The notes beneath the pieces were generated by a model. It was not told the DNA's origin. It was given only the letters and a program-made list of their open reading frames with translations, and did not search any database. Positions 61,762-64,000 of a stretch of 64,000 nucleotides of DNA are shown here, piece by piece (positions within the stretch are counted from its first letter, which is position 1; every line of letters begins with the position of its first letter). A program made the translations under genes and the position numbers. Source of the stretch: Actinotalea alkalitolerans (GTDB lineage: Bacteria; Actinomycetota; Actinomycetes; Actinomycetales; Cellulomonadaceae); NCBI RefSeq assembly GCF_023369855.1, contig NZ_JAMBPP010000012.1, positions 62,001 to 126,000 of the forward strand, written 5' to 3'.

Positions 61762-63213
61762 ATGGCAACCAAGCAGCGCAAGAACACCGACGAGTCGTCG
61801 TCGCGGAGCACCAAGGACGTCTCCGGCGTCCAGGGGTTCGACCGCGCCGATGCTCTGTACCCACCGCACACCGACCTCTTCACGTTCACCGCCAAGGTGA
61901 TGGAAGGGCCCGGGCCCGAGTACGCCATGATCCTCGAGAGCATCTGCGGTGTCGCCGATGACTCCCAGCCCGTCGAGCAGTACGACGGCACGCTCGGCGT
62001 CACGGTCGCGTTCGTGGCCGCGCACCAGCGCCAGGCCGCGCAGGTCCAGTGGAACGCCGGACTGGGTGCCACCTACACCAACCCGGGCAACGTCAGCGGT
62101 GTCCGGTGGGGCAGCGGCACGATGATCAGCCGCGACCTGTTCCTCACCTGCGGCCACCTGTTCGACCAGAACCCGAACGGCTGGACGGTCCCCCGGCAGA
62201 ACGGCACTGCCACCGCGATCAGCCCGGCGGAGATCGCGACGAACATGCGGGTGAACTTCCTGTACCAGGTGGACCCCTCGGGCACGCTGCGGGCAGAGGA
62301 GAGCTACCCGATCACCCAGCTCGTGGAGTACCGGCTCGGGGGCCTCGACATGGCCATCTGCCGGCTGGGGGGCAACCCGGGCGACGTCCACGGCTGGACC
62401 GAGGTCTCGGCCGCCAACGCCGCCGTCGGGGACATGATCTGCATCATCGGGCACCCGGCCGGCATGCCCAAGCGCCTCGAGGCCGGGCCCGCGACGACCG
62501 TCACGACGAACCGGATCACGTACGACGACATCGACACCCTGGGCGGCAACTCCGGCTCCGGGATCCTGCAGGCCTCCACGGGGCGCATCGTCGGCGTCCA
62601 CACGAACGGCGGGTGCACCAGCACCGGCGGTGCCAACTCGGGTGTGGCGATCGCGGGCATCCTCGCGGTGTCCCCGACGCTCCAGGCCCTCCCGGCAGGG
62701 TCGAGCACGGGTCGTGCTGCGGACGGCATCACCACCCGGTTCGCCGACGACCTCCGTGCCACCATCCGCGCGGCCGACACCATCTCCCTGCGCGACCGCA
62801 TCGGCACCCCGCTGGCTGCGGACATCGGCACGATCCACGCCGCGGACACCGCGCGGGTCCTCGACCGGCCCGGGACGCCGCTGGGCGCCGACACCCATCA
62901 CGTCCTCGACAACCTCGGGACGTCGATCGCCGGCGACATCGGCACGTTCGGCGTCGGTGACGATCCCGACCTCACACGCGTCGAGACGGCGTTCGACCCC
63001 GGCTCGTTCGTGGACCCGCGGGTGTTCCCGCAGGGTGGGCGGCCCTTCGTCCAGGCCGGTCCGTCTCAGGTCGTCGCGCGCGAGGAGGTCGGCGCCGAGG
63101 GCTCGGACGTGCTCGCGGGTCTCGAGCACGCGATCCTGGCCCAGCGCGCCGCGTTGGAAGCTCTCGAGGCGACGTACGAGTCGCTCGCGGCGCAGCTGGA
63201 GGGCGGGTGGTGA
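61762..63213 (+). CDS. Trypsin-like serine protease with Thr/Asp-repeat tail, putative graspetide precursor
   Basis: The 483-residue protein has no signal peptide or membrane segment; it opens MATKQRKNTDESSSRSTKD. Residues ~75-305 are a trypsin-like protease with triad His132 (LTCGHLFD), Asp196 (GGLDMAICRL) and Ser264 (GGNSGSGIL). Residues 338-392 hold three 17-residue repeats: ADTISLRDRIGTPLAAD, ADTARVLDRPGTPLGAD and ADTHHVLDNLGTSIAGD. Each has T-x4-D-x3-T-x4-D. A helical tail follows (LAGLEHAILAQRAALEALEA). The next gene, 39 bases on, is an ATP-grasp peptide ligase. I infer that Thr and Asp side chains of the repeats are cross-linked by that enzyme. ATG 61762; ribosome site weak (GAAGGATGCCGCC). 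Confidence 0.75.
   Translation: MATKQRKNTDESSSRSTKDVSGVQGFDRADALYPPHTDLFTFTAKVMEGPGPEYAMILESICGVADDSQPVEQYDGTLGVTVAFVAAHQRQAAQVQWNAGLGATYTNPGNVSGVRWGSGTMISRDLFLTCGHLFDQNPNGWTVPRQNGTATAISPAEIATNMRVNFLYQVDPSGTLRAEESYPITQLVEYRLGGLDMAICRLGGNPGDVHGWTEVSAANAAVGDMICIIGHPAGMPKRLEAGPATTVTTNRITYDDIDTLGGNSGSGILQASTGRIVGVHTNGGCTSTGGANSGVAIAGILAVSPTLQALPAGSSTGRAADGITTRFADDLRATIRAADTISLRDRIGTPLAADIGTIHAADTARVLDRPGTPLGADTHHVLDNLGTSIAGDIGTFGVGDDPDLTRVETAFDPGSFVDPRVFPQGGRPFVQAGPSQVVAREEVGAEGSDVLAGLEHAILAQRAALEALEATYESLAAQLEGGW
62773..62937 (+). repeat. Three-unit Thr/Asp peptide repeat (putative core)
   Basis: Encodes residues 338-354, 361-377 and 376-392 of the protease. Thr sits at 340, 363, 378 and 349, 372, 387; Asp at 345, 368, 383 and 354, 377, 392. 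Spacing is identical in all units, and units 2 and 3 share residues Ala376-Asp377. A degenerate unit may precede at 320-339. DNA identity between units is modest, so selection on residue pattern rather than recent duplication explains it. Confidence 0.85.
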
Positions 63214-63252
63214 CCGGCGTCGTGGTGTCGTGCCGTCCGGGGCGGTGAACCG

Positions 63253-64000
63253 GTGATCGGCATCGTGTCCCACGTCGAGGACCTTCACACCCAGCAGGTC
63301 ACCCGGCACCTCGACGCCGCCGGCTCGCCCTGGGCCATGGTCGACACCTCGCGCTTCCCCACGGCTGTGAGCCTGACGACCGTGCAGGGCGCCGACGGGT
63401 GGCGCGGGGTGTGGGCGGACGGCGGCGTGGCCTGGGACGCGGCGGACGTGCACGCCATGTGGTGGCGCCGTCCGCAGCCCTTCCAGCTCCACGCGGACCT
63501 GCGGACCGGCGACGACCGGCTGTTCGCGCACGGGGAGTGCGCCGCGGCCGTCGCCGGCCTGTGGGCGTGCATGGGAGCGACGTGGGTCAACGACCCCGAC
63601 CGGGACGAGGCCGCGTCACGGAAGATGTGGCAGCTGCAGGTCGCCACCCGGGTCGGCCTGCGCGTCCCGAGGACGTGCATGACCAACGACCCGGAGCGAG
63701 CACGGGCCTTCGTGGCGGCGGAGCGGTCCGGCGCCGTCTACAAGTCCTTCAGCGCGACGCCGAGCACGTGGCGCGAGACGCGGCCGGTAGGGGCAGCGGA
63801 CCTCGAGCTCATCGACGCCGTCCGGTACGCCCCCGTCATCTTCCAGGAGCTCGTGCCCGGTGGCATGGACCTGCGCGTGACGATCGTCGGGGAGGAGGTC
63901 TTCGCGGCCGAGATCCGCAGCGGTGAGTCGGCCTACCCCTACGACTTCCGCGTGGACACCGCCCACGCACCGACCTCGGTGTACGAGCTCCCGGACGCCG
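63253..64000 (+). CDS. MvdD-like ATP-grasp peptide ligase (3'-truncated)
   Basis: The frame from GTG 63253 stays open to the window end, giving 249 residues of a protein normally ~320 long. The N-terminal domain ends with VHAMWWRRPQPF (70-77), the W-x-R-R-P motif of graspetide maturases. ATP-grasp elements follow: NDPDRDEAASRKMWQLQVA, VYKSFSATPSTWRETRPV and VIFQELVPGGMDLRVTIVGE. Such enzymes activate Asp/Glu side chains with ATP and join them to Thr/Ser (esters) or Lys (amides) of a precursor peptide. The protease gene ends 39 bases upstream. GGGGCGG precedes the start. Confidence 0.87.
   Translation, partial: MIGIVSHVEDLHTQQVTRHLDAAGSPWAMVDTSRFPTAVSLTTVQGADGWRGVWADGGVAWDAADVHAMWWRRPQPFQLHADLRTGDDRLFAHGECAAAVAGLWACMGATWVNDPDRDEAASRKMWQLQVATRVGLRVPRTCMTNDPERARAFVAAERSGAVYKSFSATPSTWRETRPVGAADLELIDAVRYAPVIFQELVPGGMDLRVTIVGEEVFAAEIRSGESAYPYDFRVDTAHAPTSVYELPDA

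Follow-up and report, generated by a model that had tools for sequence, protein, structure and literature searches.

A protease gene followed by a graspetide-type ligase

What does a graspetide ligase act on when the gene directly in front of it encodes a protease? Canonical graspetide precursors are small peptides with N-terminal leaders. At the end of a 64,000-nucleotide stretch of Actinotalea alkalitolerans DNA (the window), a preliminary description had pointed to a possible graspetide precursor of a different kind, fused to a protease. Our analysis leads us to consider it highly probable that the two genes form a graspetide-type system whose precursor is itself an enzyme, with a core array, a follower and a ring-closing ligase, ring formation itself being inferred. 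The relevant features are as follows.

61762..63213, + strand: putative protease-fused graspetide precursor, 483 aa (V8-like S1 protease, T/D array, RPF follower and C-terminal helix)
62110..62598, + strand: trypsin-like peptidase domain, residues 117–279 (PF13365, E 9.2e-14; Foldseek V8/Esp match)
62155..62157, + strand: catalytic His132, invariant in the protease alignment
62347..62349, + strand: catalytic Asp196, invariant in the protease alignment
62551..62553, + strand: catalytic Ser264 (GGNSGSG), invariant in the protease alignment
62683..63039, + strand: presumed multi-core region with 12 T-x4-D motifs, residues 308–426, predicted to be disordered before modification
63040..63048, + strand: RPF(V) motif, residues 427–429, leader-like but C-terminal to the cores
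63097..63201, + strand: C-terminal helix, residues 446–480 (AlphaFold2; blocks within it at pLDDT about 70–87)
63253..64000, + strand: MvdC/MvdD-type ATP-grasp ligase (graspetide synthetase), running 299 nt past the window end

The protease was assigned a chymotrypsin-like double barrel with a His–Asp–Ser triad by Pfam (Trypsin_2), alignment, profile search and Foldseek alike. The triad, which the preliminary description had read as intact in a trypsin-like protease, is indeed complete and is invariant across 17 homologs. Foldseek grouped it with the V8/Esp glutamyl endopeptidases (E 1e-9 to 3e-10); the profile search agreed with a V8-type fold (1p3c), and AlphaFold2 predicted the protease domain as folded. 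The window protease shares fold and triad with the V8-type glutamyl endopeptidases (S1 fold) at about 20% identity over the fold but, unlike them, it has a long array tail and no obvious signal peptide. Its Thr259 and His280 are invariant in the family and match the V8 Glu-pocket residues T164 and H184. On this basis alone, the protease might cleave after Glu or Asp.

The ligase ORF starts with GTG 39 nt after the protease, so the earlier claim of an MvdD-like ATP-grasp gene directly behind it stands. Extension of the sequence beyond position 64000, which had been proposed as a check, completes the ligase on the contig at 348 aa; the ORFs further downstream look like housekeeping genes (named by eye). 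The ligase contains an MvdD pre-ATP-grasp domain (PF21068, E 7.5e-11) and matches the TIGR04187, MvdD and MvdC families (TIGR04187/04184/04185; E 3e-50 to 6e-33), and K124, K164, D269, E282 and N284 are among the ATP-grasp residues invariant in its alignment. Its profile matched those of the solved MdnB, MdnC, CdnC and PsnB at 1e-61 to 1e-35 and that of RimK only at about 1e-9. Of the features by which we recognized a graspetide locus, the MvdC/MvdD-type ATP-grasp ligase is clearly present.

The tail of the protease is a regular array

The preliminary description had taken residues 310–483 as the presumed core region, a range that does take in the array, the RPF motif and the C-terminal helix. 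The 119 residues between the protease domain and RPFV contain 14 Thr and 16 Asp, which form 12 T-x4-D motifs. In 2000 shuffles of the tail, the mean was 1.8 and the maximum 6, bearing out the reported repeats of conserved Thr and Asp. No other Thr–Asp spacing occurs more than three times. Counted per protein, this dominant spacing amounts to 8–19 copies, as opposed to 1.2–3.6 in shuffles. Placing a Thr/Asp core in the C-terminal region of the protease is supported, but the strict i to i+5 rule had gone unnoticed, and so had the leader-like RPF follower behind the array. The same i to i+5 span, from Thr to the acid, is found in the inner ring of plesiocin, within its TTxxxxEE motif.

Across 14 ortholog pairs, the motif Thr is identical in 149/159 cases (94%) and the motif Asp in 158/162 (98%), whereas the four residues between them are identical in only 337/613 (55%). 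This contrast is somewhat inflated, as T and D themselves help to place the alignment. In Gram-negative and archaeal arrays, either Lys or Thr occupies the nucleophile position (KLKFRDD, KIKAFDD, TLKFRDD, TLPFRD), and i to i+5 remains the top or joint-top offset. For K-type arrays the connectivity is uncertain, because the i+4, i+5 and i+6 offsets are close. Graspetide linkages join Thr, Ser or Lys to Asp or Glu (PMC8939145, PMC12291112), and the protease has what is expected of a precursor in this respect: it is ligase-adjacent and carries conserved Thr/Ser/Lys and Asp/Glu in a variable core.

The usual graspetide precursor is recognized through a leader at its N-terminus that bears the motif Phhx(1,2)h (PMC8939145). 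A motif of this kind, similar to PFFARFL, is provided by RPF(V/A/I) in all ligase-linked S1 homologs. In every fusion, however, it is C-terminal to the array, and the canonical order of leader and core is not observed. AlphaFold2 predicted the array to be disordered, with residues 319–448 below pLDDT 50.

Could the repeats be structural or ion-binding, with the ATP-grasp enzyme doing some other job such as RimK-like amino acid addition? They are regular, the tail is acidic, and RimK-type ATP-grasp ligases do add Glu residues. Nevertheless, the ligase is far nearer to MdnB, MdnC and PsnB than to RimK by profile and has the MvdD pre-ATP-grasp domain; the K and D/E arrays of relatives preserve the spacing without preserving any ion-binding or solenoid pattern, and AlphaFold2 shows no fold in the array. 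We therefore give this explanation hardly any weight. As a separate candidate, Ca-binding or RTX-like repeats were rejected because the relatives' K and D/E arrays keep the same spacing.

Between array and RPF, most actinobacterial members have a conserved [T/S]xxE (TRVE in the window, 62974–62985). It might form an additional cross-link or, if the protease is specific for Glu, be the place where it cuts itself. We do not claim self-cleavage at this position, since the Glu is missing from one Cellulomonas group and from the Gram-negatives.

The gene pair is conserved across distant genomes

According to the preliminary description, an ATP-grasp gene unlinked to the protease in relatives would have refuted the proposal. 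The outcome was the opposite. Homologs of the protease were found in 21 of 222 genomes of the same family; the ligase is directly downstream in 20/20 complete loci, at a spacing of -4 to +126 nt, and one MAG copy is frameshifted. Nine further loci with an adjacent ligase are spread over Bacteroidota, Alpha- and Gammaproteobacteria, Halorubrum and additional actinobacteria; when the species genome collection was scanned, loci turned up in a Cytophagales MAG, Caulobacter hibisci, a Chromatiales MAG, Halorubrum and other actinobacteria. All 29 ligase-linked S1 homologs have both RPF and tail arrays of T/K and D. In complete S1 members, the core is the tail of a protease of 461–584 aa, so that a small stand-alone precursor, another usual feature of graspetide loci, is absent. 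Distances between proteases and between ligases are correlated (Mantel r 0.72, 0/5000 permutations).

Clustering of the neighborhoods revealed nothing conserved except the two genes. In particular, it yielded no conserved small ORF near the loci, nor did it point to a conserved partner such as a dedicated exporter or a methyltransferase. A sample of the proteobacterial phylum (349 genomes) added no fusion to the one from Caulobacter and yielded merely relatives of the canonical graspetide ligases, and the phage collection had only distant ligases (about 30–34% identity). A defense system was also considered, but PADLOC matched RT-protease models only weakly, by way of the trypsin fold, and no assignment was made. 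In one actinomycete MAG (loci L049/L073), the protease frame enters the ligase frame without a stop, probably owing to an assembly frameshift.

Homologs without a ligase lack both array and RPF

A natural control is offered by seven protease homologs without an adjacent ligase, which come from Phycisphaerae, Neolewinella, Sorangium, other Bacteroidota and, in two cases, the phylum sample. None has an array; they end instead in ricin-type repeats, in DUF346 repeats or in unrelated sequence. RPF is present in 29/29 ligase-linked and 0/7 ligase-less homologs, although these counts are not phylogenetically independent. In six of the seven genomes, no matching ligase was found anywhere; Sorangium has only a distant tandem ligase pair elsewhere. 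Taken together, the counts and the genome-wide absence of the ligase indicate that array, RPF and ligase come and go together. The idea of a protease-fused graspetide precursor is supported by this contrast, since ligase-linked relatives have array and RPF and ligase-less ones lack both.

DUF346-like or ricin-type lectin tails (L079, L080, L082, L053 and L054) mark this as a protease family with exchangeable C-terminal modules. On a plasmid of Sinorhizobium americanum CCGM7 (L090:1591-7983), two S8 subtilisin-family peptidases flank a homologous trypsin-like protease, an arrangement that is possibly a protease cluster of its own.

The same module is found on unrelated metalloproteases

Related ligases also adjoin proteases of other folds. 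In Burkholderia stagnalis, the ligase (52% identical to that of the Chromatiales MAG) lies behind an M43 metalloprotease of the pappalysin type; along its tail run TLASTD, TIPTVD, TIATAD, TIAWTD, TLATAD, TLSTLD and TLKFID, followed by APFVLSTPHHS. In six actinobacterial genomes, a related ligase lies behind an astacin-type M12A protease, identified by Pfam in two cases and by the HEIGHxxGxxHE motif in the others. The tails of these astacin fusions carry K-to-E/D or K-to-D arrays; in one of them (L105), the i+5 offset is not special. A PF(V/A/L) motif is present in the tails of the M43 fusion and of five of the six M12A fusions, and L118 shows TFV where the others have PF. The tree included five of these ligases, one from the M43 and four from M12A fusions, and unites them with those of the trypsin-like fusions in one clade with support of 100/99. 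The clade also takes in two long-branch rhizobial sequences, and its internal order is poorly resolved. The preliminary description, though supported as to a protease-fused precursor, had missed the fusion of the module to unrelated metalloproteases. The occurrence of this module on three kinds of protease that are unrelated to one another points to the protease itself as the substrate of cross-linking.

Small YscW-like proteins (PF09619) are encoded directly after two astacin-fusion ligases (L117:1139-1477, E 4.6e-5, above the cut-off; L108:2487-2825, E 0.0013, below the Pfam cut-off); they are not conserved in the trypsin-like loci. A more distant ligase (L100) has a stand-alone graspetide-type precursor beside it (L100:1043-1498), in which the same type of motif, RRQPFVLKS, is N-terminal (RRQPFVLKSRKP) and which has four similar repeats, SDWGETxxTxTSEGxDQSE. 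Beside further ATP-grasp genes on Sinorhizobium and Croceicoccus plasmids, small repeat proteins annotated as hypothetical (L114:2776-2985, TKTKVEQESDD-like; L113:2460-2984, TKVRQESADDD-like) are likely multi-core graspetide precursors.

It remains to be asked whether protease and graspetide pathway are mere neighbors, the peptidase maturing a separate small precursor encoded elsewhere and its tail being an ordinary linker or repeat domain. Peptidases do neighbor graspetide ligases and have been surveyed as maturation or resistance proteins (PMC8939145, PMC13097080). Against this, neither a small ORF nor any third gene is conserved in the loci, the presence of array and RPF coincides exactly with that of the ligase, and unrelated proteases with the same kind of tail adjoin the same ligase clade. 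Moreover, a linker would not keep T and D at 94–98% while the residues between them drift to 55%. We consider mere proximity very improbable.

Proposed mechanism

The pairing of the genes, the statistics of the array, its conservation, the exchange between T and K, the swapping of tails and the recurrence on three protease folds are all observed, and from them the peptidase appears to be a graspetide precursor in which a C-terminal follower replaces the N-terminal leader. RPFV and the helix would then form the docking element for the dedicated ligase, a natural follower behind a disordered array. Such a follower is plausible because the fuscimiditide ligase ThfB works with its leader moved to the C-terminus by engineering (PMC13003496); there are no binding data. 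The ligase would phosphorylate each Asp, and the Thr five residues upstream would attack, so that the tail could come to carry as many as 12 ester rings of six residues each, strung like beads. Without mass or structural data, the closing of rings, their connectivity, the docking of the follower and any effect on the protease are inferred only. This lack weakens the proposal, as does the fact that canonical precursors are small and have N-terminal leaders.

The cross-linked protease could be the end product, its disordered acidic tail having become ring-studded and less charged. Alternatively, the protease could trim itself, losing the follower and/or releasing ringed peptides; in the absence of a dedicated exporter or partner gene, any peptide that is set free and exported would have to rely on housekeeping routes. 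The lectin-type repeats that relatives have in this position make a binding or targeting tail attractive. Self-trimming or peptide release is equally attractive because every fused partner found is an endopeptidase, and we do not choose between the two.

Another role for the cross-linked array would be to act on the very protease that carries it, as a built-in inhibitor or as a pro-domain. The known activity of graspetides is protease inhibition, the characterized ones being inhibitors of serine proteases (PMC8939145), and in the window the array is tethered to just such an enzyme. However, the same kind of array is present on astacin and M43 metalloproteases, and because unrelated proteases carry it, the array is unlikely to serve in general as an inhibitor fitted to a single active site. 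The fast drift of the ring residues also fits a specific active-site inhibitor poorly, and the replacement of the array by ricin-type or DUF346 repeats in homologs points to binding or targeting. We regard the inhibitor explanation as unlikely.

A more far-reaching version of the enzyme-as-precursor proposal holds that the ring-bearing protease is the final product, and that graspetide ligation, beyond its use in making small peptides, serves here to modify protein domains: a dedicated ATP-grasp clade would mature whole proteases of at least three unrelated folds by turning the disordered tail into a string of macrocycles, guided by a natural C-terminal follower. We put this forward tentatively, as the evidence falls slightly short of favoring it.

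Relation to known systems

Ligase and chemistry are of a known kind. Plesiocin-type multi-core graspetides (PsnA2/PsnB) resemble the window system in having tandem cores and one ATP-grasp ligase, but their precursor is small and stand-alone with an N-terminal leader, and they have Glu acceptors and double-ring hairpins instead of single T-x4-D beads on a protease. Corallotide likewise has a large precursor (about 22 kDa) with five repeated cross-linked KxxxD motifs; it differs in its i to i+4 lactams, its oxygenase modification and the lack of any reported enzyme domain, whereas the window family has T/K-x4-D on a protease (PMC13097080). Fuscimiditide (ThfA/ThfB) shares Thr–Asp esters, inferred in the window system, and tolerance of a C-terminal leader, which was engineered there (PMC13003496) and appears natural here.

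A similar gene organization is known from two branches of the ATP-grasp tree, 7 and 8, described by Makarova et al. 2022: they are linked to peptidases of several unrelated families, a precursor has not been identified, and in branch 7 a YscW homolog is frequently encoded at the locus (PMC8939145). The window system and its relatives share the peptidase link and the lack of a stand-alone precursor, with a YscW-like gene in two astacin loci. For those branches, the proposal was that the peptidases provide peptides from other proteins (PMC8939145), whereas in the present case candidate core and recognition motif are both part of the peptidase; branch placement is untested. The newest survey of graspetide ligases still lists proteases as neighbors (PMC13097080). 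In the literature searched, we found no enzyme acting as a graspetide precursor, no natural C-terminal follower in this class, no core array shared by three protease folds and no paper joining graspetide and astacin, although earlier descriptions of the first three cannot be fully excluded.

A peptidase that is itself the precursor would answer the puzzle of peptidase-linked ATP-grasp branches without a precursor (PMC8939145). If true, it would extend RiPP chemistry to large enzymes and provide a natural example of a C-terminal leader, an arrangement known until now just from engineered fuscimiditide (PMC13003496). The ligases, acting on the tails of proteins by a simple X-x4-D rule, would also be of use for introducing rings into proteins. 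As to what the array tail does for the protease family, its exchange for lectin-type tails in relatives is a first hint of function.
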